64,000 nt of DNA from Gossypium raimondii (taxonomy: Eukaryota; Streptophyta; Magnoliopsida; Malvales; Malvaceae): the NCBI RefSeq assembly GCF_025698545.1, contig NC_068567.1:1178001-1242000 (forward strand), in the 5' to 3' direction. This document shows positions 12,685 through 49,510 of the stretch, one piece after another; positions within the stretch are counted from its first letter, which is position 1; each line of letters starts with the position of its first letter. Position numbers and translations under genes: made by a program. The notes under the pieces are model-generated. The model did no database searches. It was given only the letters and a program-made list of their open reading frames with translations, and was not told the DNA's origin.

Positions 12685-13098
12685 TGTTGTAGTTCGAATT
12701 CTAGATTTATTAGATGTTCACTCTTTTATGTAGCTACATAAATAAAGGTAAATTAGTGAAAATTGGGCAAATTAGGTCTTACACGTTAGATTCAAGAACA
12801 AATTGGTTCTTCTGTTAAAAGTTTTATCCATTTTTACTATTAAAATTAGTCCATGTATGTCAGCACAAGGTGTACATGTCACGTATAATTGTGTTGTAGT
12901 TCGAATTCTAGATTTATTAGATGTTCACTCTTTTATGTAGCTACATAAATAAAGGTAAATTAGTGAAAATTGGGCAAATTAGGTCTTACACGTTAGATTC
13001 AAGAACAAATTGGTTCTTCTGTTAAAAGTTTTATCCATTTTTACTATTAAAATTAGTCCATGTATGTCAGCACAAGGTGTACATGTCACGTATAATTG
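12685..13098. repeat. Two identical 207-bp tandem copies
   Basis: The segment 12685-12891 is followed directly by 12892-13098. Reading base by base I found no difference between them. Each unit starts TGTTGTAGTTCGAATTC and ends CACGTATAATTG. The unit includes half of a family A foldback sequence (the ATTGGGCAAATTAGGTC portion). Confidence 0.9.
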
Positions 13099-15631: not shown

Positions 15632-18600
15632 ATGTTCCCGCCGATGAAGCAACAAAACATCGGGAAACAATCGGAAGTATCCGATACGCCGTCGAGCAAT
15701 TTATGGGTAGGGAACTTATCGGGTGAGACGGTGGATTCAGATCTGATGGATTTGTTCGGCAAGTTCGGTGAACTCGATAGCGTCGCTACGTACTCTTCTA
15801 GAAGCTTCGCTTTCGTGTTCTTCAAGCGTGTGGAAGATGCGAAGGCGGCTAAGGAAGCTCTACGAGGAGCCACCTTGCATGGAAACCAGATCAAGATTGA
15901 GTTTGCTCGACCGGTTCGTTTCGATGTTCTTATCTTTTCTGACTATTTTTTAGGTTTTTCAGTTTTTGCTCGGTTTTTGTATATTTATTTGTGTTTTGAA
16001 AGAACCAAAATAAAGTTTGATGTTTTAGTTCTGAATGCATATATTTACATTCTAGTTTTACAGTTTGTCATATATTATTCGTCTCATTTATATCAATGCT
16101 CGGAATAAATCTTGGAATTCTAAGGAATGCAACCAAATATGAAAATCAGAATTTAAATTTTATAAAGGGATATAAAATTTTTTATAAAGGGATATAAAAA
16201 TTAAGGAATGCGGGCTCAATATGATATAATTCTTTTGTATTGAAATAGTAGGCGAAATTACACAGAGTCAAGGTGTAATCTGGGTTTAGATGAGAAAGCA
16301 ATTTAGGCATGAGATTGCCGAAGGGAAATCTTTGCAACTGTTAAAGGCGTATCAATCTAATGCTTCAAATGCTTCAAATTTTATGGATTTATGGCTTAAG
16401 GAGGGTAATGGTGTGAAACTTTTAAGACAATTTCCAGTGTTCTAACTCTATAAAGCTTTTCTCAGAAAAATGTGCAATTAGTAGTCCAAAGTATACAAAT
16501 CCTAGTTTTTCCTTATTGTATTTGGATTGTTACAGATCGGTATAGCGATAATAATCTTACACCAAGCAATATTTCGGATTTTAACATGTACTATTATTCT
16601 TCTAGCTATATGAATAGAAAAACGGGTGCAGTAATGATCTTACACCAAGCAAAATTTCCAATTTTAACCTGCATGCTCAACGGATTGATACATGATCTTA
16701 ATGTGTATTCTTTATTATTCACAAAACTCTACTTTTTTATTTCATTTTTTTGTCTTATCACTTCTCCCCTTAATAACCTAGCAACAAGCAATAAAAAGGG
16801 ATATGAAGTATGAAGGTTGATGAAATTAAATAATATTTAGTTAGTAATATTTGTATAAAAAAGTGCTACTTCCTTTCCTTTTGTTTCTATAATGTGGGAA
16901 ACTTTATAGGAGAAACAAGTATCTTCAAAATGCCATACATGCCCTTTCAAAACTAGTTTCATTTGTAAAATGAGTTCAACCATTCCTCAATTGATAGCTA
17001 AATCATCACTGTTAGCTTAATTGGCTTCTAATCTAGCTGATAATCATTGGTAAAAATTTAACATGATTCATTTGGTGGCTATTGTTGACTGAGGTAAACT
17101 ACAAACTACAAACTACTTATTGACATGTTCTTGCAATGAAAATTTACAAGATATATGGTATTTTGTCTAAGAGAAGACTAAAGCCCTTATAAACTAGAAG
17201 TATAAACTAGAAACCTTCCATAAAGAATCATAAACTATAATGTTAAAGAGAAACCAAAGAGCTCTGTGAATTCATTGACCTCCCTTTTTATATGTCATTC
17301 CATATGAATTAACAGAGGGTTCTATGAGGGTTGTATCCCCCCAATTGTGTTTGGATATGTTTCGGGTATTTATGCTTAAAGAAATGAAAAAGTTGTAGGA
17401 ACATAATTTAAAAGATCTCGAGATACAAATTTGTTTCTTCATTGTCTTCTTCCTAAAACCCATCTTCATTTCCCTTCCATCTTTTTTCTGAATATGGTTA
17501 CTCTTGTGCGCATTGGGCCTTTGTGCCCATGAGAAAAGAGAACAAAAGAAAAAAAAATTGATGTGGTCATCAATCTTAATTGGAGTGTCATAGTCCTATT
17601 TTTACTAAGCTTGATTGAAGTCCTTTTCATTCTGACATCTAGAGCGAAGGGTCAAATTTATACAACATTAAGCAGAAATTGATCTTGTGGGAATCCTTTG
17701 AGACTTTCGCTTGTTCTTTTATTCTTTAAATATGCTTAAGTTCCTCTTAAAGGAAGTGAATTTCTATTTATTTGTTTTCTCTTGACTTGAAAGAGAAGTT
17801 TGTCATGCTGAAAGTGGTTTATATTGTTTTTATTTGCTATTTTTTCCCTTGTTCCTTGTTCTTGACTTGAAGGATGGTAGAATGGCAGATCTAGACTTTT
17901 TCTTGCAATAGAATAAATATTTTGCATTTATATGAATTCATAGTAATAGAATGCTAGCATCACATCAGTAGGTTGTGATTCAAATTTTGCAGTTATATGA
18001 CTTACATTCCTCCAGTAATTAGCGTGTTTAAACTTGGATCATCTATTTTCTTTTTCCTTCTAACTTGTCCTGCCTTATGTGATAAAACATGTCTAATCTT
18101 TTATCTTTTTGGGGTTTGTTGTGAAATTCCTCAGGCAAAGCCTTGTAAGAGTCTATGGGTTGGTGGAATTAGTCAAACTATTTCGAAGGAAGAATTGGAA
18201 GAAGAGTTTTCCAAGTTTGGTAAAATTGAAGACTTCAAGTTCCTTAGAGATCGTAATACTGCATTTGTAGAGTATTTTAGAATGGAAGATGCTTCCCAGG
18301 CCATGAGAAGCATGAATGGAAAGAGAATAGGCGGTGCACAGATACGTGTTGATTTTTTGCGATCCCATCCTTCAAGAAGAGTAAGTACATACATTTAGAA
18401 TGTTAAATCTGCTTTTAATAGTTAGATAACGAATTGGTTAGCATCTATATTCCCAGACTAGTACTTCCCTGTACTCAACACCTGTTCAACCGTTTTTCCA
18501 TTTCTTCCATGTAACTTGAAAGTTGAAACACTCATTTCAAATGCTTAATGTGCTAGTAGTTGTCATATTGAATGACCTTTCTCCTTGATCTTTTTGACAG

Positions 18601-21600
18601 GAACAGTGGCCTAACTCTCATGATCTCAGAGATGGGCCTTTTACTGGTAGAATGGGGCCTTCTGATAGCCATTTGGCGAAAAGACCAGTGAGTAATAAGC
18701 CTAAAGCCTCTGTTGAACTAGACTTTGCATAATTATTCTTCACTGTTCTTGCACCTACATTTATTGCTTAAATTGAATATTTATACATTTTTCATGTAAA
18801 TCATCTTTGTAGCATTCTCAAATAGTTGGCCGAAAGGGAGACAGTCAGCCTACCAATGTTTTGTGGGTAGGCTATCCTCCGTCTGTGCAAATTGATGAAC
18901 AAATGCTTCATAATGCCATGATACTGTTTGGTGAGATTGAGAACATTAAGAGCTTCCCTTCAAGACACTATGCTTTTGTGGAGTTCAGGAGCGTGGAGGA
19001 AGCTCGTCGTGCAAAGGAGGGTTTACAGGGTCGTTTATTTAACGATCCAAGGATTACTATTATGTTCTCAAGCAGTGAACTTGCACCTGGCAAAGATTAC
19101 TCTGGCCTTTATTCAGGCATAAAGGGGCCAGGGCTTGCCATGCTCTTAAGTGATCATCCATTTAGATCTTCACAAATGGACATGTTTGGTCAAAATCATA
19201 CACTACCACCAAATACAGTAACTGGACCATTAGCAACTAGTGGTATTCTCGGATCAAATGTGCCAGTCAGGCCTTTTAATCATCAAGGTAGCTATGACCC
19301 TTTGCTTTCTGGTCCAGAATACAACGATTTATCTTCACATCATAATATGTTGGATGCTGATCTTAAAAATCTCACGGGTCCTAATTGGAGAAAATCTTCT
19401 CCTTCTCTCCCTTCTGCTCAAGGTGTCAGGCCTCCAATGAGACAGACGTCTGGTTCTTGGGATGTTTATGATGTGAACCAATTTCAAAGAGATGCAAAAC
19501 GTTTGAGGATAGAGGCTTCATTGCCTATTGATGATGCTTCTTTTCCTTTAAGAAAGATGGATGATCTTGGGCCTGGCTCAGACCATTTTGGGCCAGTAAT
19601 TGGTGGGGGTGCTTCAAGTCCATTTTTGAATGTCCAGGGAAAGGGTCGTTTGAGTCCAGTGCCTGGAAAGCTCCCTGCTGGTGGACCTGGACGAGCTCAT
19701 CCTGATAATGATTACATTTGGCGTGGCATTATTGCCAAGGGTGGAACCCCTGTTTGTCATGCCCGATGTGTTCCCATCGGAAAAGGGCTCGAGACAGAAC
19801 TGTAAGTGCTGTTATTTTCCTTGGTACATCTTTTCATTTAGACTTCCCTATTTGTGAAGGAAATGCATGATATTTGTTTGATCTGGCTAGATTCCCATTA
19901 AGGCTTACTTTCAGTTTTGAATTCTGGACAGTGTATATTGTAGTTTTACTGGAACCATTCTTTTGACTCTGTATTCTGTGGTTAATGTTCTATTAGATTG
20001 ATGAAGGGCGTATTCCATAAACATTCCTGTTGTAATTTATGTGCTGTTCATAAATGTTTTGCATGCTACTCTTGTAATTTGTTGTAGTTTTAAATTCCTC
20101 TTGGGTTTCATTTTACTCGTAGTATCTGAATGAAATTTCTTATTTACTAAAGATTCATGTGTTTGAGGCATTGCCTGTAAGGTTATTTTCTTTGAGTGCT
20201 CACTTCCTCAAAATATGTTAAATTTGAGTTTTCTTTGTTGTACTTAGGTGATCTTTTGTTTATTTATTTACTTTTAATTCCTTTCAGTTGGATATTATTA
20301 TGTTACTGAATTTCCTTCTTTCCTTTTCCTCAGTCCCGAAGTTGTTAACTGTTCAGCCAGAACAGGATTGGATATGCTAGCAAAACACTACTGTGAGGCC
20401 ATTGGATTTGATATTGTTTTCTTCTTACCAGATAGTGAAGATGATTTTGCATCATATACTGAATTCCTTCGCTACCTTGGCTCGAAAAGCAGAGCTGGTG
20501 TTGCTAAGTTTGATGATGGGACAACACTATTTTTGGTGCCCCCATCAGAATTCTTAACCAAGGTTCTTAAAGTTACAGGACCTGAACGACTCTACGGAGT
20601 TATTTTAAAGTTGCCTCCACAGGTACCTTCCACTGCACCTCTACAATCGCATCCACCTTCTCTTTCTCAGCATGATTATAGTCTTCCACATTTGAAGGAA
20701 GAACAAGCTTTGCAGAGGGAGTATGGAAGGGTTTCACACGAGGAGTCCATACCTTCTGCAAGACCTCTAGCGCAAACTACTGTGCAAAATCAACCACCCA
20801 GCAATGCTGCAGCAATTCCCCAAACTGGTGTTTCTTTAACACCAGATCTGATTGCTACTCTGGCCTCTTTTCTCCCAACGGTGTCACAGTCTACTGCTGT
20901 TGGTGGTGTTCAGCCTCCATTAGTGACATCAACTACACAGCCCTCATTTCCTCAAGGCATTGCACCGAAAGGAGCTCCTGCACAAAATTGGAACCAGGAG
21001 CAGCAAGCTTATGATCCTGCAGCCTCATCCTTCCAACAGTTCAATCCTCCAGCACAGTTACCACCAGCTCAGCATTACTCATCGATATCCAATACACCCA
21101 TCCATTCTGCCCAAGTGGCCCATGGCAGCACCCAATATCTGGATTCTGCAGCGGGCTTACCACAGCAAACTGCTTCATCTTCAAGGCCATTAACTAATTT
21201 TAGTATCCCTTCTCAAAGAGAACATGTTTCTGCCCCTTTTAGCCAACAGTATCATCCCGAGGCCCCTTCGAATACACAGAATGGCTATGGAATGATGCAT
21301 GGAGCAGATACTTCTGGGTTGTATGGTGCGCCAGCTTTTCAGCAGCCGAGCAATCCTGATGTTTTGTCTAATCAGGTTAATGGTGCTAATGTATTCCAGC
21401 CACAAAATTTGATGCAAGGTGACAAACAAAATTTGGAGCTTCCTAGTCACGGACAGCAGCTGCAGTCTGTGGTTCCTGGAGCTGGTCAGGGCACATCAGA
21501 TGTAGAAGTTGATAAAAACCAGCGATACCAATCAACGCTGCAATTTGCAGCTAGTCTTCTCCTCCAGATTCAGCAACAGCAGCAGACAAATACTCCAGGT

Positions 21601-21627
21601 GGACAAGGGACAGGGAGTCAGCTGTGA
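15632..21627 (+). CDS. FPA: Flowering time control protein FPA (spen family: 3 RRMs plus SPOC)
   Basis: The five exons are 15632-15913, 18135-18380, 18601-18687, 18813-19801 and 20334-21627 (stop TGA). They total 2898 nt and encode 965 residues, against about 900 in Arabidopsis. Three RRM domains lie at about 24-92, 99-172 and 221-293; RNP2-like cores are LWVGNL, LWVGGI and LWVGYP, and RNP1-like cores are SFAFVFF, NTAFVEY and HYAFVEF. A SPOC domain spans about 508-635, starting near [11 protein letters not shown]. The tail is Pro/Gln-rich and ends with a QQQQQ run. FPA is nuclear, directs poly(A) site choice and promotes flowering through the autonomous pathway. Intron 1 is long (2.2 kb). Reading through its donor gives a 158-codon open frame that stops at 16108, close to two AATAAA words, which fits the known intronic poly(A) autoregulation of FPA. 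Confidence 0.95.
15914..18134 (+). promoter_or_regulatory. Long FPA intron 1 with candidate premature poly(A) region
   Basis: The exon 1 frame continues into the intron to a stop at 16106-16108. AATAAA occurs at 16009-16014 and 16104-16109, with T-rich sequence around both. In Arabidopsis, FPA represses itself by promoting cleavage and polyadenylation within its own intron 1. The position here matches that, but I cannot see cleavage sites. The 113-codon open frame at 16472-16813 has no recognisable product. Confidence 0.45.
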
Positions 21628-23754
21628 TATCTTCTTCAATCTAGGTAATTATCCTTTCCACAACTTACTTTCTTGAATGGACACATGCTAATTGGTTAGT
21701 CTAGGGATATGTCTTGATATTTGTTTATCATGTGATGATGGATGTTTGTTGACTATTATTAATCCTTCTTTTAGATGGTTGCATATGCATTCTTAAAATT
21801 ATGTATAACCTTTTGGATTTAGAACTTAGAAAATGTTGGTAGTGTGTAGGGCAAGTGTCATTAGATTCGGCTAGACCTTTTACTATTTTGAGAATAGGAA
21901 GTGGGGCATTAATATGAAAGTGTTGGGATGTTATGTCATGTAATGAGATGGTTGGAATCCTTTTTTGTTTGTCGAAGTGTTTCAAGGTATAATGGTATTT
22001 TGAGATTGTTAGGATTGGTTGTGACAAGAAGGATATGAGAGTTTGATTTAATCTGATGTGTTTTTTAAGAGGTGTTTTGGAGGTTGAAAGCGAATTTGCT
22101 GTTTAGGTGGTGCAAAGGACGTGCACAATATCTAAAGTTGAGACTTTCTAGTCATTTTTTATCCACCATTCCCATTAGCCTTCCCGTTGTAGGATGGCTA
22201 TTATTTAATGGTTCAAGCTAAGATGATGTGGTTTGATGCCTGTTCTTTTTGTTCCTTTATCATGTTCGACAAAAAGACTGTTCTCCGAACTGAAAATAGG
22301 TTTTTATTTTAGAAGTATTGCATTGGAAAATGTTTGGATGCTTATTCACATGGTTAAGAATTAAGCTGCAAATTTTGTGGTGCTGGGTAGTTCCAGATTG
22401 ATCTAATCAACTAAAATATACCTGTTGGATAGTTAAACAATTGGTGCATTGCTCGAGATATAACCCCACAAAGACCTTCCAAATACATGTAAAACTTTTT
22501 AGAAAATTGAAAATACCCGTGTCAAACACAACCATTTCTGACATTCACACGTGAGTCCATGTAACATAGGTTTTTATAATTAGTTATTTCTTTACTGAAT
22601 CCATAAACATTTGCATTGGTATCTTTTCCTCTTTGTTTTCCCCGCACGGGAATGAAATTCTTTTTTCTCTAGCTCACTAGTTTTATCTTTATAGAAATTA
22701 TTGTATGCATATGTTTTCCTCTAGAAATAGTAAATGTTAGTTTCTTTATTCTTTGCTTTATGAGCATTGTTACCGTAATTATACATATCACATCTTATGC
22801 TATTTATCTTATTGTTTGCATATATTTCAAAGCATTAATTTTGAAGATTTTGCCCTTTTCACTAGACTATAGGATGAACCTTTCTTAGAATTCTAGAAAT
22901 GTAAATATTTATGGGATTCAAATTTGTAATTTTGCTTTGTAAAACTGAGTTTTACTGCATTTGAGACTTACGTTGAAATGCCAAAACTGCTTTTTCACTC
23001 AAATATTTATCGTAAAGCTAGGTGCCATAAGCCTCTAACTGTGTTGAGTCAGCCACTCGGCTATTAAATGACGTTTGAAACTTAACCTTAGCGTAGTGTC
23101 CCTAATAATTTAAAGGGCAATAAACTCAAATCACCATTTATAAACACACTCCTGTCATCATCGTCATCCCCATCTTGAATTTCTCCAAAGCCACAAATTG
23201 TACATTTTAAAGTACTCAGTAAACACAAATTGCGGCCAATCGTATTGACATTCGTTACAATGATTCAGGAGATAGGAATTTGGATGGTCTACTCTATTTT
23301 TCATTTCTTTTAGTTTTTACTCTTTTAAGTGATCAATCTTTTATACTTAGGGGATTGTTTTTGCTTTGCTTCAAGATGGGACCCCCCTCTACCTAGTTCG
23401 TAGTTAATCCCAAATCCTCGAAACAAATACTGCAAAAATTATTCTTCGAGAGTCAATTTTTTGCGAAACAAATGATCTGAAGGTTACTGATATATTTTGA
23501 AATTGATCTGGTATATACACACACACACAAAGAAAGCAATTTTCGTAAAAGAGATATTCTTATAGTATATAAAATAATATATTAATCTTGATTAAGGCTC
23601 TATAGTAGCATTTGAGAATCTAGTCAGCCAAATTCCAAATACGTTGGAATTTGATGACAAGGATGTTGAGGCACTTTGTTAAAAACGTCGGGGTCCGTTA
23701 TGATTTTGGTTGGGGATTCGATTAAACTTAGGTATCAAACTGTGGTTGGCTTCG

Positions 23755-24480
23755 CAATACAATTTATACTATCTGCCCTTTAACTTTGACGAAACATGTC
23801 AACTTGAATGGATAATGTATTTCATGTTCCGAGTTTTGGTTTCGTTGAGTTCCGTTAGTATCGAAGCGTTGGAACAATGTTGAATCCGGTGCTCTATGAT
23901 GTGAAATTTCTTATCTATGAGCTTGCCCACTGAGATGTGCATTAATCCTCAATTATTTGCATACATAAATCAATGTTGTCATATAACGTTTGGTGTTGCA
24001 TTATTCACTATGATCTTACATACATGAATGCATTGAAATGCTATCGAACTGTCGATACCCTTTTTGGTTCATTTGTATCGACGTTTAAGGGGCCGAAAAG
24101 GGTTGAAACTACAGGATGGATTACAACCCAGTTTTTGTCAAGTTTCATCTCATTTTTCGTTTCCTTTTTAACATAAAACAGATCGCGTGGGGGACTTGTC
24201 GGGGTTGGGGTTGGAATAGGTCGTATTCATTTGAATGCTTCTATATGATTTAAACTCAAACCAATCTGAGCTTTAGCATAACTTTAATAGAAAAATGCAT
24301 AGAATCCGAGCTCTGATTAAAAAAGAATACTGCAAACAATCTCCATACGTCTATTCAAATAACATAGCTTTTCTAAGGGTGAATATATCTCTTGATACCT
24401 TAAATTAGCTTCAATGTTCACATTGATACTTATGGAGATTTTTTTGTTTAAATTGGTACCGTGTTTTAGTCCATTTCTGT
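23755..24480 (+). repeat. Duplicated block, copy 1 (upstream of SKIP16)
   Basis: This is similar over its whole length to 30610-31229 in the same orientation, with small indels. Shared words include CTTATCTATGAGCTT, CACTGAGATGTGCATTAATC, GGGCCGAAAAGGGTTGAAAC and TAACATAGCTTTTCTAAGGG. Copy 2 lies just upstream of the decayed SKIP16 copy, so the pair marks a segmental tandem duplication that included the SKIP16 5' region. Confidence 0.85.
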
Positions 24481-25708
24481 AACACCATTAAAATGGTGTG
24501 ATGTGGACCAATCAAGCTATTGCAAGTGGCAACTACATCAGTTGATAATGTCTCATTGCTTAGTTTGGAATTTAATTTTAGGTACTAATTTGAAACTAAA
24601 TTAAGTTGTTAAAAGGTAAATTTAACCCTTTCTTTTTAGCAGCGGTAGCATCATTATTTTTTGATTTTCTGATACTAAAATATGAGGTTAACTTATCTAC
24701 CATTTTTAATGCAAATGTTTGCTTTCTATTCCAGCTGCTTAACGTTCATTTAAATATCGGATATGGGTATTCCTGTTTTCACTCAAGCTCATCAACGTTA
24801 TATATATGTTCGGTGAATGTCGGATATGAATATGTTTACTAGCTCGTTCGAAGTTTGTCAACATAATTGCAGTAGGATTTAGGATTCATATTCATGGCAA
24901 AAACAAAATCCAAAATAATTTTCCATGTTTATTTCGTTTGTTTCCAAGTCCCAACATAACAAAGCCTTTTTATATTAATTCATTTATTCGATTTATGTAG
25001 GCAAAAATTTTGGGCTGTGAATCCGTAGGTACGAAGCAAATTTCGAATTTTTCTGAAAATGAACAACTATGATTGCCGTCGACTGTTCGTGAGCGAAAAA
25101 TCCTTGTTATGCAAATTTTGTGGGTAATAGATTGACTTCAATCGAGGACTAGATTGTACAAATTAATTTTTTTTCCTTTAGTTAATGAATATTGGCTTTG
25201 ATTTTTATTTAGCCATGTCAAATATTTCGGCACCATTTATGTTCAATTATCTCGCTGTCTTATCGTTTTGTTATATTTAATACGGAAGAAAGTTGAAATA
25301 TGGATAATAAAAAATAAAAAAAACAGAAAAAATAATCGAGTTTAATTCAGTGAAATTATGGAATGGGATAAAAGCTGCTTTTCTCACTTTGAACCTTCAT
25401 TTTTCTTATTACGGTTAATCCCTTGAATTTGGACTTTTTTTCAATTTAATCCTAAACTTTGGCTCTAAACATGCCTTGCATAATATTTGCCGAAAAACGC
25501 CTGCCATGTATCATGTTTTAGATTGGTATCATGTCAAAGTAAAACGTCATTGATTAAAACTTAAATTTTATTTTAATAAAACTTTCTGATAAAAAAAAAT
25601 TGGTCCTTGTAGATGCACACGTGGCATAATAGTAAATTTTAATTGGGATAATGGTAAATTTGGCCCTCGATGTTTGTATTTTTTTCAATCTTTGGTTATA
25701 AACTTTTG

Positions 25709-26011
25709 GGTAAACCACACTAGTAGTAATCCAGCTATTAGTGAATTTCTTTTGTGGTCCCCTGATTGTGAAATGTTAGAAAATAATCATTCAACCATAA
25801 AAAGTTACAAAATGGTCACTTAGCTATTCAATCTTGCCTTTTTTGGTTACTAATTGGCTAACGTAAAAATGAAAGCACTCAGAAATTCAAGATAGTGGAG
25901 TGGTCAAAAAAGAAAAAATTGAACAGTTGAGTGATGATTTTGTAACTCCTTATAGTTGATGACCATAAAAGAAATTTACTAATAGTCGGTGATTACTAGT
26001 GTGGTTTATCC
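25709..26011. mobile_element. Foldback MITE, family C
   Basis: The terminal inverted repeats are GGTAAACCACACTAGTAGTAA and GATTACTAGTGTGGTTTATCC, continuing inward as ATTAGTGAATTTCTTTTGTGG against its inverse. A related element follows at 26147-26564, and partial relatives lie near 30443-30560 and 31240-31362. Confidence 0.75.
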
Positions 26012-26146
26012 AATTATATTTTAGCCATCTAAATTTCAAAAGTTACACACTAACCTTATCTAATTATTATATTTTGGATTGAAAATTGATGTTTTAGTCA
26101 ACATTTTCGTTATAAAAAGCAATTTGGCTATTTTTGGAAGGTTAAT

Positions 26147-26564
26147 GGTAAATTACACTAGTAATATCTAACTATTAGTAAATTATTTTTGGTCACTCAA
26201 TTGTGAAAAGTTACAAGATGGTTACCTAATTATTAGTATTTTTTGGTCACCCAACCATGAAAAGCTACAAAATGATCACTAATTATTAGTAAATTTCTTT
26301 TTGGTCACCTAACTATGAAAAGTTACAAAATGGTCACTCAATTATTCAATTTTTTATCACCCAATTATCTTGGATTTTTAGGTGTTTCCATTTTATATTA
26401 GCCAATTGGTAACCAAGAAAGACAAAATTGAATAGTTCAATAATCATTTTGTAACTTGTCATAATTGGGTGACCAAAAAAGAAATTTACTAATGGTTGGA
26501 TGACCATTTTGTAACTTTTCATAGTTGAGTGACTAAAAAGAATTACTAACAGTGTAGTTTACTT
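26147..26564. mobile_element. Foldback MITE, family C, second copy
   Basis: The left end GGTAAATTACACTAGTAATA and right end TACTAACAGTGTAGTTTACTT are inverted. The inside is a series of alternating TTTGGTCACNNAA / TTGGGTGACCAAA phrases, so the whole element can fold back on itself. It ends about 320 bases before the SKIP16 start and close to its TATA box. Confidence 0.65.
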
Positions 26565-26882
26565 AATATAATTTTAAATCATTTTTAGGGACTGTTGTTG
26601 AATTTACCCTTTTTAAAATGAAAAATCTCGAAAAATTTCTCATGTAAATACAAATCGCTCTACCACACCGGCCACCGCGAGATAGCACAGTATAAAGCAG
26701 CCAACAAATATATAAGATCTTTGCTGTCTCTCTCTATCCTTATCACCATCTCACTAGTTGAAAAAACCCCCCAAATTTTAGCACAATTCTGTTCAAGATT
26801 TAGTCATAGAAACTTTTCCCAACTTTTCTTTTTTCTCTTATTTTCTAAATTCAGGGTTTTGAAGTTTTGGAATTGCTTTTCA

Positions 26883-29800
26883 ATGGGAAAAGAATTAGAT
26901 GGGCTAGGGTATTTACCTCTCCACATAATTCTATCAAAATTATCTCCTTCAGATATTATTAAAGTTTCTTGCGCTAATAAAAGGCTTAGAGCTTCAGCTT
27001 CTGACGAGTCCCTTTGGGCTCAAATTTGTTATCAAGAACTTCAGCTTTCAACCCCTCAAGATGATCATGGAAACCCTCTACCTTGTTTTATGGTAATGTT
27101 GATTTCATTTTTCCAAAACCCATTTCATTATTTGTTTCTCTAATTCTTTTCTTAGTTTGTATGCTTGGATTTTTTGTTCTTCATTGTGTTTTTCTGTGAA
27201 TTTTTTTATTATTATGCGGATGTTCTTGTTATTGAATTAGGAAAAGATCTAACTTTATATTGGTTAGTTAAATCAGTTTATTGGGATCGATGACTCAAAC
27301 TCTTGAAATTTTACTTAATAAGTTGGAATTTATAACGAGGAAAAGATTTGGCTGAAATATTAAATAAATCTGTTTAAGGGGACCAGAGACTCAAATTTAA
27401 GAAATTTTAGACGAAAATAAGTTGAAATTTATATGTTGTAAAATATTTTATGTTGTTTAATTTTCTAATTCTTTTTCTTCGTCTTGGTTTCTTTAATGGA
27501 TTTTTTGGATAAAAGGACCATTTTACAAATAAATCAGTTTAATGGGACCAGGGACTCAAATTTTGGAAATTTTAGAAGAAAATAAGTTTGGAATTTATAA
27601 GAAGGAAAATATTTGAATAAAATATTAAAATAGCCCTGAACCATAATGTTTTACTTAGATAAGCCCTTATACTTTTCTGCACCTAAACAAACCCTTATTC
27701 TTTTATTGATACCTAAGGAAACCCTTATTCTCTAGTGAAAAGTTTATTTATGTTGAGGGTTTTAGGTATAGATTAAAGATTAAGTGATTGTTTAGGGTTA
27801 AGTTAAAGTTTAAGGGTTTATTAGAATACAAGTTAAAAATGTTGAAGGGATTACTTTTGTGTACAAAAACGAATGCGAACTTATTTTAATACAATGGTAA
27901 AGTCAAGGGCTTTTTTATATTTTAGTCAAAATGTTTAATTAGGGTTGAATACTATATGATATGCATGAATTTATGGATTTGGAAATGTAGATGATTAAAT
28001 TCTTTCAAGTAATGTTTTTATATTTGTTTCTTTTTCCTTTCCAGTTAGCTTATCAGTTGTGGCGAGAGGCTTTCTCGATGTATCCATGGCCACTTGTTAA
28101 ACGAGTTAAAAGATGTTGGGATAAGCTTAAGAAATGGTTTAACAACAATTTCCCGGAGGCTGAGGCGACACTTAGAAGGGGTGCATCGGAATCCGATATT
28201 GAACAATTACAAACACTTTTAAAAGTCAAATTGCCGCTTCCCACTCGGCTTCTCTATCGTTTTCATGACGGTCAAGAACTGCCGGAAAAAAGGAACCCGA
28301 AGACAGCTTCTGGTAGCTGGTTGGGAATTATAGGTGGTTACTCTTTCTATAACCATTCAGTTAATGTTTACTTGTTACCGTTAAATCAGGTTATTGCCAA
28401 GACAAGATATGTCATTCGTCACCTAGGTTTTTCGAGCCGATCTAAGTGCATCGTCATGGCTTCTTCTTTCACTTTTAGTAGGAAAGTGTTTTTCTTGAAC
28501 TGTACCAATGGCCAACTTTTTGTCGGTACAAGGAAGCCTCTTACAGATGGTGAAATGATTCCGTGTGTCCCGAATGCACTTATTCGTTCCGTGCACGATT
28601 TGTATGGTGAAGAGCAACAAGATGCCATGCTGCTGTGGTTAGAGGAACATGGACGCCGTTTAGAGAATGGTATTATCAAAGTCCGTAAAGAAGGAGATGA
28701 TCGAAGTATCAATTTATTTCCCGAGGTTCCTCCCTTATGTGTCACTACTGTAACAAACGGTGTGCAGGTAATTTTTGGATACTTCATTGTTTTGAATTGA
28801 TTTTATTGAAGAGTTAGTACATGTGTGTTGCTAGCTCAGTTGACTTTGACTAACCAAAAGATTTATTGGTTTTTGTATATTTCTATCCATGGTGGAAACT
28901 AAGCAATTATTTTAACATTTTTTAGTCGTTTTTGATATTCATGACCCTACTCTTAATGGTATTGCAATAATTGTTTTCATTATTTTTGACATGATGGCAC
29001 TAACAAGAAGTATTAGCTTCCAGGTTCGTGCTTCGGCTGTGTTCGTTCCAGAATTTGCTGACCTAGTAGATGAAGCCGAGAAGTTCACGTTTGCTTATTC
29101 AATCCGCATGTCACTCTTACCTGAAGGGTGCGTCATTAATGGAATGACCTTCGTCTCCTGCCAATTGAATAGGAGGCATTGGATCATTCGTGCTGATGGA
29201 GAAGTCGTATCCAGTGTTGATGATGAGGCCGTGATCGGAGAGGTGATGAAATGCCTATTTCTCTCAGTTTAATTTCTCCTATATAAATTTATGCTGGTTT
29301 GACTCTTCATTTCCTTTTATCTTGCTCGATTTTCTTTATATAAGTGAGCCTTATTAGAAAATAAGCTTTTGAAATGACGTAGCACTACCAGGTTTCTTCA
29401 TTATTGAGTTACGTGATCGACAATGATTAAAGAAGGAAGTTCGATGTTCGAGTGTTGTTTTCAGTGGACTATCACTAGACTTTCACCTTTTTTTTTGTGT
29501 ATATTATTGACAAGATTCATCAAGTCATCAACGTTTTCTATAAATCTTGTTTTCCTTTATGCTTGCAGTACCCTCTGTTGCATCCAGGAGAAGGCGAATT
29601 TGTTTATCAGAGCTGCGCGCCCTTACCATCTCCTTCAGGTTCCATTGAAGGTCATTTCACATTTGTCCCTGGAAGGTATGTGAAACAAACTTTTGATTAC
29701 TTTTAGAAGGTCTATTTCAATGAATCATGCTACCTTTGACCGACTGTCTTGTCCCAATGTCTTGTAACGTGAGTCGAAATCCTTCGGCAACAGAGTTTAG

Positions 29801-30288
29801 ATTTAAATCCGATGTGGTTGTAGAAATCTGTTGAGAAGAATGGGTGTGAGAGTGATATAAATACTTTTAAGAGAAAATAAGAAAGTCCGGAATGTATTTC
29901 GAGCGTAACCAATGAGTTCACTTTTGTATGAGAATTATTACATAAACATCGTTTTCTTCCTACATTTAGTTTCTTCTTGGTTAAGACTGGCAATATTTTC
30001 CCAATAAACGGCAACGATAATTTATAAACAAGCTTAATTGAGCTCAAGCTTTGAGTAGCTCAAACTAGCCACTAGTCGAGTTCATCTCAGCTTGAGTACA
30101 CCCTTACTTTTATGATGCCCGAATATGCCCGTCATTCCTTACTGATGTCGGAATATATGAAGTGAACACAGATAGTTACTAATGTAAACTTTGATTATTT
30201 TGTGGTTAGGTTGGCTGATCCAAGAGGCGGTCCATTTGAAGTTCAAGTGGCAAGGTTCCCATTAGAAATGCCAGACTATGTTTTTTGA
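26883..30288 (+). CDS. SKIP16: F-box protein SKIP16 (F-box, SMI1/KNR4, ApaG/DUF525)
   Basis: The five exons are 26883-27092, 28045-28767, 29024-29242, 29569-29675 and 30210-30288 (stop TGA). They total 1338 nt and encode 445 residues, close to the Arabidopsis protein (about 436). Residues 5-50 form an F-box, starting LDGLGYLPLHIILSKLSPSD. Residues about 100-250 resemble a SMI1/KNR4 (SUKH) domain, with GIIGGYSFYNHSVNVYL. Residues about 312-440 form an ApaG/DUF525 domain, with FTFAYSIRMSLL and a GHFTFVPG strand. Family knowledge: SKIP16 binds SKP1-like ASK proteins and should act as a substrate adaptor in an SCF ubiquitin ligase; its target is unknown. The in-frame ATG at 26883 was chosen because the F-box follows at once; upstream in-frame sequence looks like leader. 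A decayed second copy lies downstream (31411-32900). Confidence 0.95.
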
Positions 30289-30609
30289 CAGAAATTCCTG
30301 ATTTCAGACTTTTTGCCTGTTTGTATGTGTGAAAACCCTATTTTGCTCTTCCATTACATTTTGCGATATTACTGTCATCATAAAATTTGTTACTTGTCGT
30401 TAATGAATGGGGTTTGCTTGTGTGTAAAACACAGAATATATTGGGTAAATTACAGTCAAGGTCATTAAACAATTAGTAAGTTTATGTTTTAGTCACTCAA
30501 TTTTAAAAATTTACAAGATGGTCATTATCAATTTTGATATTTTTTCAATTTTTGTAATGACATGCGTGGCACCATATCATCACATTGGACTAAATTTGAG
30601 AAATATTTT

Positions 30610-31229
30610 TCAAATTCCAAATACAATTTATATCATCTGCCATTTAACTTTGACGAAACATGTCAACCAACTTGAATGGGTAACGTATATCATGTTTCGA
30701 ATTTTAGTTTTGTTGGTATCGAAGGCCGTGAAATTTTCTTATCTATGAGCTTACCCACTGAGATGTGCATTAATCTTCAACTATTTGCATACATTATTCG
30801 CCATGATGTTACATATATGCATGCATTGAAATGCTATCTAACTGTCGATACCCTCTTTGGGCCGAAAAGGGTTGAAACTACAGGACGGATTACAAGTTTA
30901 CAACCCGGTGTTTGTCAAGTTTCATCTCATTTTTCGTTTCTAGGGAACTCGTCGGGGTTGGGGTCGGAATAAGTCGTATTCATTTGAATGCTTCTGTACT
31001 CAAACCAATTTGAGCTTAAGCGTAACTTTAATAGAAAAGTGCCCAGAATCCGACCTCAGATTAAAAAAGAATACTGCCATACGTCTATTTAAATAACATA
31101 GCTTTTCTAAGGGTAAATACATCTCTTGATACCTTAAATTAGTTTCAATGTTCAAATTGATACTTATGATTTTTTTTTGTTTAAATTGGCAGTTGAATTC
31201 GACTTCCGTCACATGTTTTAGCCCATTTT
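30610..31229 (+). repeat. Duplicated block, copy 2 (upstream of the decayed SKIP16 copy)
   Basis: This is the direct-orientation partner of 23755-24480. It ends about 180 bases before sequence similar to SKIP16 exon 1. The intervening 2.4 kb present in copy 1 is reduced here to a fragment of a family C foldback element (31240-31362). Confidence 0.85.
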
Positions 31230-31410
31230 TTAATTAAATAGTTGGATGACCAAAAAAAAAACTTATTAATAGTTAGATCATTATTTTATAATTTTTCATA
31301 ATTAAGTGAGCGAAAAAGAAATTTATTAATAGTTAGATGACTACTAGTACAGTTTATCCAATATAATTTTAAATACCCTTACCTTGTTAAATGATAACCT
31401 ATTTTCCAAA

Positions 31411-32900
31411 TTTTAGGTTTTAAGGTTTTGGAATTGTTTGTCGAGGGAAGAAGAATTACATGGTTAGGGATTTAGGTCTCCATATAATTCAATCAAAATT
31501 TCAAGAGTTTGAGTCTTTGATGCCGATAAACTTATTTATTTGCAAAAAAATAAATAAAAATTATATAAGGAAATTGACATGTCTAATATAAAGTTATTGA
31601 TCTTTTCCTAATTCAATAACAATAACAAGATCATCATGGCGAGAGGCTTTCTCGATTTATCCTTGGTTGCTCGTTAAACGAGTTACTAGACATTGGGATA
31701 AGCTTAAGAAATGGTTGAACAATCTCGGAGGTTGAGGCTACACTTAAAAGGGGTGCATCGGAATCCGATATCGAATAATTACAAACACTTCTAAAAATCA
31801 AATTGTCACTTTCAACTCGACTTCCTCATTGCTTTCATGACAGTTAAAAATTGCCGAACAAAAAGAACCCAATGACGGTTTCTGGTAGCTAGTTGGGAAT
31901 TATAGGTGATTACTATTTTTATCACCATTCGGTTAATGTTTACTCGTTACCGTTAAGTCAGGTTATTTCCCAAGTAATGTATGTCATCTCGACAATTAAG
32001 TCAGAGGCAATAACCTGACTTAACGGTATCAAGTAAACATTAACCAAATGGTGATAGAAAGAGTAACCACTTATAATTCCCAACCAGAAGTCGCCTTCGA
32101 GTTCTTTTCTTCCTGCAATTCTTGATCGTCATAAAAGCAATAGAGAAGTCGAGTTGAAAGTGACAATTTGATTTTTAAAAGTACTTGTAATGATTTGATA
32201 ACGAATACCCATGCACCCTTTCTAAGTGTAGCCTCAGCCTCCGAGATTGTTGAACCATTTCTTAAGCTTATCCCAACGTCTATTAACTCGTTTAACGAAC
32301 GGCCATGGATATATCGAGAAAGCCTCTCGCCATGATGATCTTTTTATTGTTATTGAATTAGGAAAAGGTCAATAACTTTATATTAGTTTAAATTTCCTTA
32401 TATAAAAGTTTTTTTTTTTTGCAAATAAATCAGTTTATTGACATCAAAGACTCAAACTCTTGAAATTTTACTTAGATAAGTTGAAATTTATGACGATGAA
32501 CAAATTTGGTTGAAATGTTAAATAAATCAAATTACGGGACCAGATACTCAAATTTTATAAAAAAAAGTTAAAATTTATATGGAGGAAATTATTTTATGTT
32601 GTTTAATTTTCTAATTATTTTCTTAGTCTGGGTTCTTTATTTTTTGGATTTTTGGTCCTTCATTGATTTAATACTTTTCACTGTGTTTTATGTTAAGGTT
32701 TTTGTTTTGGGTTATGTGGTTTTTCTTGTTATTGAATTGATTTAAGTATTAAGGGCTTGTTTAAATTAAATGGTAAAGTTGAAGGGCTTTTTCCATAATT
32801 TAGTCAAAATGTTTCACATTGTATTTTCCATGAATATTTGTGTTGATTGCTTGATTTTAATGAAATTTAAAAGAAATAATATGCAAAATGAAAAATATAA
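31411..32900 (+). pseudogene. Rearranged, decayed second copy of SKIP16
   Basis: The segment 31411-31494 resembles the SKIP16 leader and first exon (26861-26946), without an intact start. Then come an inverted piece of intron 1 (31495-31630), a forward piece of exon 2 (31631-31970, similar to 28060-28400), the inverse of both (32009-32469), and forward intron 1 sequence continuing to about 32820. Stops and indels break every frame. For example, both exon 2 arms lack about 5 bases just before the CGGAGG word of the intact gene, and TAA replaces a Gln codon in the left arm. Exons 3-5, the ApaG domain, are absent. I infer that a tandem duplicate was truncated and later inverted on itself. It cannot make SKIP16 protein. 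Confidence 0.88.
31495..32469. repeat. Palindrome made from SKIP16 exon 2 and intron 1 sequence
   Basis: The left arm is 31495-31967 and the right arm 32009-32469, with a 41-nt spacer. The arms pair along their length with scattered mismatches (I estimate 85-88% identity by eye). The inner parts correspond to SKIP16 exon 2 and the outer parts to intron 1. The small deletion before CGGAGG is shared by both arms, so the inversion arose from a single, already damaged copy. Confidence 0.9.
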
Positions 32901-33708
32901 TAAAACCAATTTGCCAAAATATACACAAAATACTAACACTTACAAAATTATTTAAATTATTTTAATAAGATTATAATATTTTAAACTTTGAAAATATTAA
33001 CACAAAAGCAAAACATAAAACTCTTGTAGTTAAATGAGTGACGGAAAGCTGACATTAGTTTCATTTTGATCACTCAATTATTGACTTCCTTCTATTTTGG
33101 TCATTCAATTATTAATTTTTTGATTTAATCACTAAACTTTTCGAGATTCTAAAAATTAGCCATTTAATGTTTACACATTTTATCAATTTGATATTAAATA
33201 TAAAAAATCTGACAAATTTGGCCCTCAAAGTTTACAAAATTTGTCATTCTAGTTTAGATTCTAAAAATTCAATAAATTTAGCCCTCAATATTTACAAAAT
33301 GTCACATTGTGCTATTTGATTGGCTAAAATAGCCAAGAATTTTTTAAACCCTGTTAAAAATTTAGACCAAAACCCATAAGGAAACGATACTTTAGGTGCT
33401 AAAAATAAAATTTAGCCCTCAACATTTACAAAAACTTTAAAAATAAAAATTTTTATTTTGTAAATGTTAAGAATTAAATTTATTGAATTTTTAGAATTTG
33501 AATTAAAATGAAAATTTTCATAAATATTGAGGGCTAAATTTGTTGAATTGTTTTATATTTAGGATCAAATTAATCGAATGTGTAAACATTAGAGGGTTAA
33601 ATTTGTTATTAGACCAATAAGAAAACACACACGTTAGCCTTTTGTCACTCACCTAGCAGCAACTACTAGAAGAGTGACTAAAATTTTAATTTTGAAAAGT
33701 TTAGTGAC

Positions 33709-34603
33709 GGTAAAAGTACTATAGAGACCCTTGCACCATGAGTCAGGTTGCATTTTGCTCCATTTACTTAAAATATAAGCAAATTAGTCTTTGTATGTTA
33801 AATCAAAGAGCAAACTAGTTAGTTTAATTAAAAATTTAATCCATTTCTATTGTTAAAAAATAATGTAGCTGACGAAATAACCAAACAGTTACACGTAGCG
33901 TGTCATGTATCAAGGGTGAAGCAAGAAATTTTTTTTGGGAGATCGGAATTAAAATGTATATTTTTACGATAGTAAAAATATAATTTTGTTATTTTAATAG
34001 CCTATATCTTTATAATTTTAAAAGATTAAACCAAATTTTATCATTTTTAGGGGGCCTAAGTGTAATTTTACCATTTTTAATTTGAAATCTTATAAATTAT
34101 AAAAGGGTCTAAATGGAAAATTTTCCATTTTAGGGGGGACCGGGCCACTGCCATAGCACCCCCTAAAATGGTAAAATTTAAATTTAGGCCCTTTATAATT
34201 TATAAAAATTTAAATTAGTAATGGTAAAATTACAATTTGCCCCTCAAAAAATGATAAAAAATTAATTTAACCCTTTAAAAATTGTAAAGATATAGGCTAT
34301 TAAAATGATAAAAATTACATTTTTACTATCGAAAAAATATACAATTTAATTCCGGCCTCCCCAAAAAAAGTTTCTAGCTTTGCCATTGACCCCTACCAGC
34401 CCCTCTAGTTTCACCACTATCATGTATACCTCATGTCAACATACAAGAACCGATTTTTAACAATAGAAATAGATAAAATTTTGAACAAAATGATCAATTT
34501 GCTCTTTGATCTAACATACATGGACTACTTTGATCATTTCTTAATTGAAGGAGCGAAACACAATCCAATTCTTAGTATAAAGGCTTCCATAATACTTTTA
34601 CAA
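33709..34603. mobile_element. MITE, family A, carrying a nested insertion
   Basis: The ends GTAAAAGTACTATAGAGACC and ATACTTTTAC are inverted, and the next inner words (GGTTGCATTTTGCTCC and GGAGCGAAACACAATCC) also pair. The flanks TTTAGTGAC and TTTAATGAC could be a 9-bp target duplication with one change. The element is split by a second element at 33911-34419. Confidence 0.7.
33911..34419. mobile_element. hAT-like foldback element nested inside the family A MITE
   Basis: The 509-bp insert is flanked by the exact 8-bp direct repeat TCATGTAT (33903-33910 and 34420-34427). The left end begins CAAGGGTGAAGCAAGAAA and the right end, reverse-complemented, begins TAGTGGTGAAAC. The interior arms pair closely around GGCCACTGCCATAGCACCCC at the centre. 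An 8-bp duplication and CA(A)GGG-type ends fit nonautonomous hAT elements. Similar words occur inside 48900-49080. Confidence 0.78.
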
Positions 34604-35689
34604 TTTAATGACTAAATCGAAAAAAATTACAAATTGAATAACCAAGATTTTCGATTCCATGGTCTTTCTTTGCTTCTCTTCCCTCGTCTATCTTCTAAGG
34701 TCATTTTTTCTTTATAATCATGTATGTATGTATGTATATATATATATATATTCTTAATTTATTTATATGCCAATTTCACCCTTTTGAACCTTTTAAGGAA
34801 TTTTAAATCCTTCCAATGTGAACACAAGATTTCATATTGAAATTCCATTTATGGCATTCATTTATGCACTTGATTTTAAAAGGAAAGTGAGTCATTATTT
34901 AGTAATAATTAACTAAAAATAGTTATAATTATGATTTTCATGCCATATTTAAAGCTTGTTTTAATTTCCTAATAATTAACTAAAATAGTTTGTAATTAAT
35001 TGTTGTGCATTAATTACTTAAATATTAATGTAACGTCAATTATTGTTAAATTTTTATTTCTTTATTAATTGTCCCAATTTTTGAGAAATTAATATTTTAA
35101 CCCATATTTATGTCATTTATTGAATTTTACTTCCAAAATTCAAGCTTGTTCAATTAAATCCATCTGTTAAGCAAATTTGACTTTCATTCAAAATAGTATA
35201 CAATAAAAAAGGTGTAATGACAAATTTAGTTCTTAATATTTATATTTTTTGTCAATTTGGTCGTTATTCAATTTTTAGCTAAATTTGACCTTCAACTTAA
35301 AAAAAAAGAGACAAATTTGACCATAATCCTTATAAAATAGTCGATTTTTTTTAAATATTGACTAAAAATTAAATTTCTAAACATAGCAACCTACATGGCA
35401 ATCCACGTGTACTTCATTTTTTAAAATTTTATGAACTTTATATTTTTTGGATATTTTAATATTTTAATAATTTTAAATTATTTATTGATGTGATATATAA
35501 GATTAGCATGCGAACATCATTCAAATTTAACGTTCTAGTCTCGTATTCATAAAAAAATTATCTCTTTTGAAATGTTAACGGTTAAATTTAGCTAAAAAAT
35601 AAGATTTAATTGACAAAAATGTAAAATTTATCACTACGCCAAAAATAGAAACCGACTATGTATTTTGAGTTAATTAAGTATTACGATCT

Positions 35690-41560: not shown

Positions 41561-44500
41561 TTTACACTAATCGCAAATAATACAAAAGGCGATGTGTGAC
41601 TGGTTAAGTTTGGGAGATCGTAATACAAAATAGTCATGCTCTTTAAAAAAGATAAAAACAACCGAGTTTTTGCGATTCGTAATTCTAATGGTGAGTGGAT
41701 TTAAGACCTGGAGACACTTCAATCTGAGGCGATTAGCTTTTTCAAAAATTTGTATGGAGAAAATCCTGATCATCTCATGGGAAGTTTGCCCCTAATGCCT
41801 TCCTCCAGCTTGATCTTGTTCATACCGAATTTTTGGGTAAATCAATTATTGATGAGAAAATAAGGGATGTTTTTTTTGACATTAGTGATGACTTCAATGC
41901 TTTTTTTTCCAGAAACAATGCAGTACGGTAGCGGGAGTAGTTTGCGAATGGGTTAAAACAATTTTCGCTAATGGTACTATGGATTCGAATTTAAATAACA
42001 TCCTGATCGTTCTTTTCCCTAAGATTTCAAATTCTGAGAGCTTTACACAGCTCTGTTCTATAAGCCTTTGCACGGTTCTTTATAAGCTTGTTATAAAGAC
42101 AATAGCTAATCGCTTCAAGCTTATTTTCCCCAAACTTATAGCTCATGAGCAGACTGGATTTATTGCCAGAAGGAATATCACTGACAACATTGTCGTCACG
42201 CAAGAGGCAACTCAATCTATGCGAAGCAAAAATAAAAGGAAGTGGATGGCGATCAAAATCGACCTAAAACAAGCGTATGATCTATGGGATTTCATCGATG
42301 TTTCATTATAGGCGGCAAGTATCCCGGATTATCTTAGAAATGTTATATTATCTGCTATTACTAACTCTACCTTGCAGGTTTTGTAGAATATGGAGTCCCG
42401 TCTAATAAATTCCGGCCGGTCAGAGGGATTCGATAGAGTTGTCTACTTTCTCCCTATCTTTTTTCTATGGGTAAATTACACCCATGGCCACTTTTGTTTA
42501 CCTTAGGTTACATTTTAGTCACTTATGTTTGAAATGTTACGTTTTTGTCACTTATGTTATCGTGTTGTAATATTTTAGTCACTGAGCTATTAATTGTCGC
42601 TAACAGTGTAACAGTAAGTTGACGTGGCACGTTAAATCATCATTTCAAACAAAAATTTTATCGATCCCCATATTTTTTCATTTTGATCAATTTAATTTTT
42701 TTTATGTTCTTTAATTTTTTTCTTTATTTTCCATTATCTTTTGTTTCTCCCTCTATTTTCTTACCTTCTCCATTTCTTTTAACATATCAAGAAGCCGAAT
42801 TGGCAGTGAAGAAATAAGTCGAAAACCATCATTGCGTATAACCAAAACCCATAAACCCATACCATGCTTTTTTCTTCACTGCCAATTCGACTTCCTGATA
42901 TGTTGAAAGAAATGGAGAAGGTAGGAAAATAGAGGGAGAAGAAGAAGAGAAAGGAAAATAATGAAAAAAAGAAAGAAAGTTAAAAGAACATAAAAGAAAA
43001 AATTAAATTGCTCAAAATGAAAAAAATATAGGGACCAATTGTATAATTTAACCTAATTTTTTTTGTTTGAAATGATGATTTAATGCGCCACATTAGCTTA
43101 CCGTTATACTGTTAACGACAATTAATGGCTCAATGACTAAAATATTGCAACACGATAACATAAGTGACTAAAACGTAACATTTCAAACATAAGTGACTAA
43201 AACGTAACCTGAAGTAAACAAAAGTGACTATGGGTGTAATTTACCCTTTTTCTATTATGCATGAAATGGCCTGGTCACGGTATACATAATGCTATTTCAG
43301 TTGGGGAGTGGGGTCCTATACGTTTGTCCAGATCATGACCTACCCTTTCTCATCTTTTTTTTGTTGAGGATCTTGTCATCCTTTGCAAATCAGATTTGAA
43401 GCACGACAGAATCTTTATTAGGATTTTAGCACAATTTTGTGAGTTTTCATGTCATAGAATCAATGCTCAGAAGACTAATATTTTCTTTTCAAACGGAGTG
43501 GATGAGGCTACAACAGAAATATCAGTAACTCGTTCAGCTTTCAACGGGTGCAAAATCTTGGTTACTATATGGGAATTCCTCTTTTTCACCAAAGAATAAC
43601 TAATATCACCTTATACTTCGTTGTGAAAGAAGTTTGCAAAAAGTTGGGATGCTAGAAAGCTATCCTTTGTTGGTCGGGTTACCTTTGGCTCAATCGGTTC
43701 TCTTGTCTATCCCTAGCTATTTTACGCAATCATTAAGGGTTCTTGCAAAAATCTTTGAAGAGATTGAAAGCATGGTTAGGAAATTCATTTGGGGTTCTTC
43801 CGATGGCAAGAAGAAGATGCCCTTAGTGGGATGAGACTCGATATGTTAACTAAGAGATTGCGGAGGGCCTCGAATGAGGCAACTACGTGACCAAAATACT
43901 GCTTTTCTGATGAAACTTGGATATAATATTGTGGCAACTACTGATGCTTTATGGGTTCGTGTAATCTGTTCAAAATATGGGATGAAGGAGAGTATGCTGA
44001 AAAATATTGCACGAGGCCGCAGTTCGTTCCTTTGGAAGGCTATCTCAAAAGTTTGGCCTCTCTTATGAGACAATCTGATTATAGGGGTGATGGAAACAAC
44101 ATTAGATGCTAGAAGGATCCTTGGATATTTCCAAGTATAGGACCCTTGATTAATCATATACTTGTCTCAGATAATTTTGTTTCAAATTGCTTTCTTAAGG
44201 ATATGATTAAAGAGGAAGGCTCATGGAATCTTGAACTTTTACGTGGATGGATATCGTCTGACATTATACGATGTATTGTGAGTGTCCCTCTACCGCATCT
44301 TTCAGGGGGTCCAGATAGGATTTCATGGTGCCATACAACTACATGTGGCTTTTCGGTCAAAAGTGCTTACAGGATGTTAAAAGAAGATTCTTGGAATTCA
44401 AGAGAAAATAAATGGAAAATGGCATGGAAATACCCAGGATCTCAAAGTTCGTTTCTTCATTTGGACTGCTCTAAAATAACGACACCTTACAAATACCGAA

Positions 44501-48600: not shown

Positions 48601-48678
48601 CTTTGGTTTTGAATTTAGGGTTTCAAACAAGATTACTATTTTGATTTACCTATGTCGATAACAACAACAACAACAATA

Positions 48679-49265
48679 AGTGTAAACTATAAAAGTAGTC
48701 ACTTTTATTTGTCTTATGTTACATTTTAGTCACTTATGTTTGAAATATTACATTTTAGTCACTTACGTTATCGTTTTGTTACGAAGTGGTCACTTTATCG
48801 TTAAACTCTATTACCTCCCTAACAACAGTCCTACGTGGCAGTCCAAATGAGTTTTTAATACCAACTTTGATGTCCAATTGTTGAGATGAAAATAAGTTTT
48901 TAATCAAGATTAAATCAATTTTTAAAGGGTTAAATCAATTTTTTATCACTTTTAAGGGGGGCCAAAGTACAATTTTACCTTTACTAATTTTAAATTTTAA
49001 AATTTCAAAAAGCTTAAATAAAAAATTTTCCATTTTAATGGGGGTCAGGGCCGCTACCAGCCCCTGTGATTTTGCCCCTATTTTTAAGTTGGTAATTAAA
49101 ACTCATTTGGACTATCATGTACGACCACCATTAGAAAGGTAACGGAGCTTAATGGTAGAGTGACCACTTTTGATAACGTAAATGATTAAAACATAACATT
49201 TCAAACATAAATGACTAAAATGTAATCTGAGAATAATAAAAATGACTAACTCTATAGTTTGCCCT
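48679..49265. mobile_element. Foldback MITE, family B, with hAT-like piece inside
   Basis: The left end AGTGTAAACTATAAAAGTAG and right end, reverse-complemented AGGGCAAACTATAGAG, are inverted. Paired words continue inward (GTCACTTATGTTTGAAAT, CTACGTGGCAGTCC/ATGTACGACC, CCAAATGAGTTTTTAAT). The centre (48900-49080) contains GGGGGTCAGGGCCGCTACCAG, similar to the centre of the hAT-like element at 33911-34419, so it may be nested or chimeric. The flanks are AAT/AAC microsatellite-like, which hides any target duplication. Confidence 0.7.
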
Positions 49266-49510
49266 AATAATAATAATAATGAGAAGAAGAAGAATTAGAA
49301 AAGATCAACTCCTATAAATATTAGGATTGAATAAAAAAATCATAAATTAACTTACTGATAATAAATATAATAACAGAATTTTAAATAATTCTGTTAAAAA
49401 AATAAAATGGAAATAACAGTTTAAGCCATTCTAATAAAAATTAGAAATAACCTCTCAACGTGGTAATTACAAACTATGAACTACAGATAAACTACTTCAA
49501 ACCCAAAAAA

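Follow-up and report, generated by a model that had tools for sequence, protein, structure and literature searches.

Introduction

According to the inverted duplication model, a young MIRNA gene originates when a fragment of its target gene is duplicated in inverted orientation. The palindrome described here, found in a stretch of 64,000 nucleotides of Gossypium raimondii that was analysed as a whole (the window), likewise originated by inverted duplication of gene fragments, in this case of SKIP16. Its arms are far longer than those of the usual MIRNA foldback. No Rfam miRNA family reached its gathering score in the palindrome (the best, MIR2593, scored 51.2 of 96.2 bits), and identity with a known miRNA was therefore rejected.

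The closest case is that of the inverted pseudogene pairs of rice, which are also adjacent inverted copies. In the excerpted text of that study (PMC2708354), the threshold set for antisense small RNAs was reached by 145 of the 11,956 pseudogenes, and small RNAs that map to the hairpin are described for two pseudogene pairs in adjacent, inverted arrangement. One of these pairs, 83% identical over 185 bp, gave dense hairpin small RNAs, while none were detected from the parent according to the same excerpt. Its loop measures 1,283 nt, against 35 nt in the SKIP16 palindrome, and its parent lies on another chromosome, judging by the locus name, whereas that of the palindrome is 1.2 kb away. In contrast to the SKIP16 palindrome, the rice pair is a case in which small RNAs were observed.

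In Arabidopsis Cvi the VIM4 and VIM2 genes, with an identity of 99.86% between start and stop codon, form a Cvi-specific repeat of ~6.4 kb for which siRNAs and effects on targets were shown (PMC13213937, in excerpt). This system and the SKIP16 palindrome have in common that they are derived from genes by local rearrangement, that they have the potential to form dsRNA against homologous genes, and that their non-palindromic centre is short (50 bp and 35 nt, respectively). Unlike VIM4-VIM2, the SKIP16 palindrome has arms of ~0.47 kb that are 87% identical and old. In poplar, two inverted segments that are partial duplicates of ARR17 form a hairpin, with more than 75% of the reads being 24 nt long and with differential methylation of the target (PMC9636151, in excerpt). 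Partial duplication, inversion and a match to an intact gene are shared with the SKIP16 palindrome, but the poplar locus is sex-linked and its target is elsewhere in the genome.

The inverted-duplication route is already established, and the SKIP16 palindrome is a fresh, old and decayed example of it. Among the matches listed in a search of titles and abstract openings, neither a palindrome of SKIP16 nor siRNAs derived from this gene were reported, and the same was true of those listed from the literature on inverted repeats and hairpin RNA in cotton, which does not prove that no such report exists. The palindrome represents a clean and roughly datable step before a hairpin-siRNA or MIRNA gene, with the useful features that the arms are gene-derived, the parent is nearby and the order of events can be read. 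If siRNAs are found, it would show for how long such hairpins can feed silencing without visible selection; if none are found, it cautions against calling every gene-derived palindrome a silencer.

The intact SKIP16 gene

Intact SKIP16 lies on the forward strand at 26883-30288 (exons 26883-27092, 28045-28767, 29024-29242, 29569-29675 and 30210-30288). Its spliced frame is open and encodes 445 amino acids, its introns are of the GT-AG type, and Pfam recognizes an F-box-like domain (4.5e-7) and DUF525 (ApaG; 1.3e-21) in the protein. The name was given in the first-pass annotation, and it suits a protein with an F-box and an ApaG domain. TATA motifs are present at 26691 and 26709, within the segment 26580-26838. 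SKIP16 is known for stable expression, in plants other than Gossypium raimondii. Judging by titles and by the counts of its occurrence, studies of reference genes in other plants include it among their candidates.

Geometry and composition of the palindrome

At 1,207 bp beyond the end of the SKIP16 stop codon at 30288 begins a segment of 975 bp (31495-32469) that matches its own reverse complement from end to end (993 columns, 83.8% identity, 36 gaps, E=0). When substitutions alone are counted, the identity of the arms is 87.2%, with 390 of the 447 aligned bases the same and 57 different. In this self-inverted alignment the left arm extends from 31495 to ~31970, with its intron part on the minus and its exon 2 part on the plus strand, and the right arm from ~32006 to 32469, with the exon 2 part on the minus and the intron part on the plus strand. 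The first-pass annotation had described two SKIP16-derived arms of about 470 bp, placed head to head 1.2 kb downstream of the intact gene and within a decayed duplicate of it, pairing over their whole length and resembling the intact gene in the exon 2 part. The alignment, which covers exactly this segment, and the composition of the arms and their flanks given below agree with this description. The centre proved to be short, as claimed, although it measured 35 nt (31971-32005) with fuzzy edges instead of 41 nt; by eye it consists of more exon 2 (to ~28422) followed by a few filler bases.

Each arm joins a reversed piece of SKIP16 intron 1 (27221-27312) to a piece of exon 2 (28060 to ~28398), the two being in opposite orientation to each other, unlike in the gene. 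This implies that an inversion junction was duplicated together with the gene fragments. From left to right, an exon 1 remnant is followed by reversed intron 1 (27312 to 27221), forward exon 2 (28060 to ~28420), the centre, reversed exon 2 and finally intron 1 running forward from 27221. The intron part of the left arm (31495-31627, minus) is reversed 27221-27312 with ~40 extra bases that are common to the right arm (93% identity in one alignment of 43 columns and 88.6% in another of 44). Its exon 2 part (31637-31970, plus) is identical to SKIP16 at 285 of 334 aligned bases (85.3%). For the exon 2 part of the right arm (32006-32332, minus) this is the case at 283 of 327 (86.5%), and the adjoining intron 1 part is in its native orientation (32341-32469, plus; 88.9% over 45 columns).

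The right arm runs without a break into the native intron 1 of the copy, which continues outside the palindrome on the plus strand (32470-32814, matching 27313-27936). The left arm adjoins the exon 1 remnant, and the join is at AAAATT, a 6-base microhomology that occurs both in exon 1 and in reversed intron 1. The 5' remnant of the copy (31360-31500, plus) consists of 31360-31374, corresponding to 26565-26579, and 31400-31500, corresponding to 26839-26941; the latter covers the end of the 5'UTR and the first codons, with an altered start codon. Between them, 25 bases (31375-31399) replace the 259 bp of parental promoter and 5'UTR at 26580-26838. Neither of the parental TATA motifs is retained in the copy, and no TATA motif was found in 31340-31500.

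Since SKIP16 28415-30420 had no match in 1-28000 or 30421-64000 at E 0.01, the copy seems to have lost exons 3-5 and the greater part of exon 2. Past 32814 no homology to the remaining part of SKIP16 was found within the window. Further upstream, a block at 30615-31213 (plus) is similar to 23751-24484 (71% with gaps over 746 columns, 90.4% by substitutions) and may be where the tandem copy began, which would put its start upstream of the promoter. Its K2P distance is 0.103 (95% 0.078-0.132) and that of the other flank pieces 0.134-0.207. Because the block is less diverged, its membership of the same duplication is not certain, and one tandem duplication may not be the full account.

Coding use of the copy was rejected because the start codon is changed and 31495-32469 contains just two ORFs of 55 amino acids (ORFs of at least 50 amino acids considered), both antisense to exon 2.

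Folding of the palindrome RNA

The prediction that a transcript would fold into long dsRNA held in the folding run. The palindrome RNA folded at -585.5 kcal/mol, against -192.1 +/- 5.8 kcal/mol in 20 dinucleotide shuffles, all of which folded less well; its stability is beyond chance. The number of paired bases was 852 of 975 in the plus and 858 of 975 in the minus transcript, with longest uninterrupted helices of 43 bp and 48 bp, respectively. Among five palindromes that were folded, it was the most stable per base (-0.60 kcal/mol per nt). The locus has inverted arms derived from a host gene and the capacity for long dsRNA, which are among the features that define a gene-derived hairpin siRNA locus. 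Judged by the predicted structure, the RNA, if made, would be an excellent Dicer substrate.

Order of events and age

Common to both arms are the ~40 extra intron bases, a gap of 5 bases and the inversion junction. This suggests that the rearrangement of the unit probably preceded its doubling. Of the 327 exon columns without gaps, 24 had a change specific to the left arm and 20 one specific to the right arm; both arms differed from the parent in 22 columns, and all three differed in 2. Together with the shared junction and indels, the 22 shared columns indicate that the unit, in its rearranged form, had already split from the parent by the time of the doubling. For exon 2 the K2P distance was 0.159 between the arms, 0.167 between parent and left arm and 0.152 between parent and right arm. 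The distance between the arms is thus similar to that between either arm and the parent, and the palindrome is therefore old. In the short intron part the distances were 0.098 (arm-arm), 0.130 (parent-left) and 0.103 (parent-right), values that are uncertain with 84-120 bases.

The youth that was implied in the first-pass annotation finds no support in the divergence between the arms (0.141; 95% 0.104-0.179), which is close to that between the parent and the copy in the intron flank (0.161; 0.101-0.219). At substitution rates of 3.5-7e-9 per site per year the divergence between the arms would correspond to an age of about 10-20 million years.

In the 15 flanking bases on each side of the palindrome no target-site duplication was seen by eye. 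Together with the continuity of the right arm with native intron 1 and the 6-base microhomology on the left, this makes the palindrome look like the product of local rearrangement. Given the microhomology and the mirror layout, it was probably formed by fold-back template switching at short homologies. The sequence of events would then be that decay and rearrangement affected a tandem copy of SKIP16, that a piece of exon 2 became inverted beside intron 1, that this inversion junction was doubled head to head to give the 975-bp palindrome, and that the arms have drifted since.

Base changes, pairing and target matches in the arms

CHG methylation marks silenced plant DNA. C-to-T (or G-to-A) changes in the arms were found at 7 of 38 CHG sites and 13 of 202 CHH sites (Fisher p=0.023, uncorrected). 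They were not raised at CG sites (6/68, p=0.58), and CG and CHG together compared with CHH gave p=0.088. The weak CHG excess is a possible hint of past methylation or silencing of the palindrome. Downstream of it, foldback elements are present at 33152-33604 and 33674-34642, which could likewise bring silencing.

Under selection for pairing of the RNA, transitions that leave a G-U pair are expected to be favoured. Pairing was kept by 15 of 36 polarised transitions in the plus transcript and by 21 of 36 in the minus transcript (p=0.41), while 14 transversions break it; among the 36 transitions no significant difference between keeping and breaking was found, in a test of low power on one genome. 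Exact 21-mers to the SKIP16 mRNA numbered 8 in the left and 5 in the right arm, of 955 windows per strand; when up to one mismatch was allowed, the numbers rose to 54 and 58, respectively. Exact shared stretches of 24-25 nt lie at 31693-31716, 31748-31771 and 32253-32277. Under drift, taken as uniform random change at the observed divergence, 11.1 (0-38) and 15.5 (0-47) exact 21-mers are expected. Neither the pairing nor the target matches are kept better than drift predicts, at low power and in one genome. The proposal that the hairpin is conserved for silencing of SKIP16 finds no support in the wobble test or in the number of exact 21-mers, which is within the drift expectation.

The arm-specific exon changes were distributed over codon positions 1, 2 and 3 as 8, 11 and 5 in the left arm and as 10, 10 and 0 in the right arm. 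This pattern does not have the third-position excess of selected coding sequence. In the right arm (32006-32332) none of the 20 private changes is at a third codon position (binomial p=5e-4; one of many tests); such avoidance in a non-coding copy is unexplained.

Interpretation of the palindrome

The palindrome is probably a drifting pseudogene structure that possibly makes siRNAs directed against itself; any selected effect on SKIP16 would be small or nil. This is supported by the junction and indels common to both arms, the continuation into native intron 1 and the left join, the near-equal exon 2 distances, the wobble test, the few exact 21-mers, the missing TATA motifs, the changed start codon, the lack of a third-position excess and the precedent of the rice pair. 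Against it count the stability of the hairpin, the highest per base of the five palindromes folded, the CHG excess, the lack of third-position changes in the right arm, the low power of the wobble test and the lower divergence of the upstream block. Transcription, if any, would be by read-through from SKIP16 or by Pol IV, after which the RNA is predicted to fold into a long hairpin and could be cut by Dicer-like enzymes. The likeliest product, if any, would be siRNA directed for the most part against the palindrome and causing its methylation.

A stricter form of this interpretation, and a sub-case of it, so that the confidences in the two overlap, is that the palindrome is fully inert DNA, decaying, never transcribed and without siRNAs. 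Such inertness is plausible, though less likely than not. It would agree with the neutral appearance of the decay of the arms, with the lack of a TATA motif in 31340-31500 and with the low proportion of rice pseudogenes above the threshold for antisense small RNAs, as determined from one library (PMC2708354, in excerpt). On the other hand, some rice pseudogenes and the two adjacent inverted pairs in the same excerpt do yield small RNAs, the arms carry the CHG signal, and the neighbourhood at 33152-34642 is rich in foldbacks.

It is unlikely that SKIP16 is silenced or tuned in trans by the palindrome acting as a hairpin-siRNA locus, with siRNAs of 21-22 nt or 24 nt cutting the mRNA or methylating exon 2. 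A hairpin that is long and stable on either strand, the near-matching 21-mers in both arms, the weak CHG signature and the precedents of VIM4-VIM2 (PMC13213937) and poplar ARR17 (PMC9636151), as excerpted, speak for this activity. It is opposed by the lack of any sign of selection for pairing or target matches, by the loss of the parental TATA motifs from the copy and by the identity of the VIM4 and VIM2 genes, which is far above that of the palindrome (PMC13213937, in excerpt). The standing of SKIP16 as a reference-gene candidate elsewhere in plants, by titles, and its stable expression there also argue against it.

More speculative is a brake on SKIP16 encoded by the gene itself, which is doubtful at best: a palindrome of ~10 million years or older would have been kept across the genus, giving siRNAs from the exact SKIP16 matches by which exon 2 is methylated or the dosage limited. 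If this were true, a decaying hairpin would, between the pseudogene and the MIRNA stage, pass through a long phase in which its matches to the target are useful.

That the palindrome is a transposable foldback element (MITE or Pack-type) with captured SKIP16 sequence is very improbable, even though other palindromes in the window belong to repeat families, for example that at 42469-43246. The arm ends are internal intron 1 sequence, and the only match outside SKIP16 in the window at E 0.001 was a weak hit of 79 columns at 33439-33514. Neither a target-site duplication nor a repeated family, the marks of MITEs and foldback transposons, was found within the 64-kb window, and a transposon origin was rejected because no target-site duplication was seen and native intron 1 continues from the right arm. 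An assembly artefact, a class to which false palindromes are known to belong, is scarcely credible and was rejected because the arms differ at 57 of 447 aligned bases, and their flanks are collinear and decayed.

Other features of the window

Clustered direct and inverted copies of a MITE-like unit occupy 25700-26580, directly upstream of the SKIP16 promoter, and relatives of this unit were found at 30437-30558 and 31223-31371. A near-complete palindrome of 778 bp at 42469-43246 has GGGTAAATTACA ends and is flanked by the 9-base direct repeat TTTTTCTAT. It lies near a reverse-transcriptase ORF (41979-42308) and is related to 52511-53076 and 48676-49268, with which it makes up a putative MITE-like family. 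Rfam MIR7502, a family named together with Gossypium in 14 papers, matched 13020-13158 with 85.3 bits on one strand and 71.9 bits on the other, both above the gathering score. This match is within a self-inverted stretch (12948-13227), and 13081-13242 is 74% similar to 33751-33903; by its sequence, the family looks derived from a MITE-like foldback.

Upstream of SKIP16, four ORFs at 15632-21627, of which three have RRM domains and the fourth a SPOC domain, are probably part of one gene, presumably encoding an FPA-like RNA-binding protein. On the minus strand, an ORF with a NAM (NAC-type) domain is present at 49511-50566 and one with a rhomboid domain at 53924-54733.
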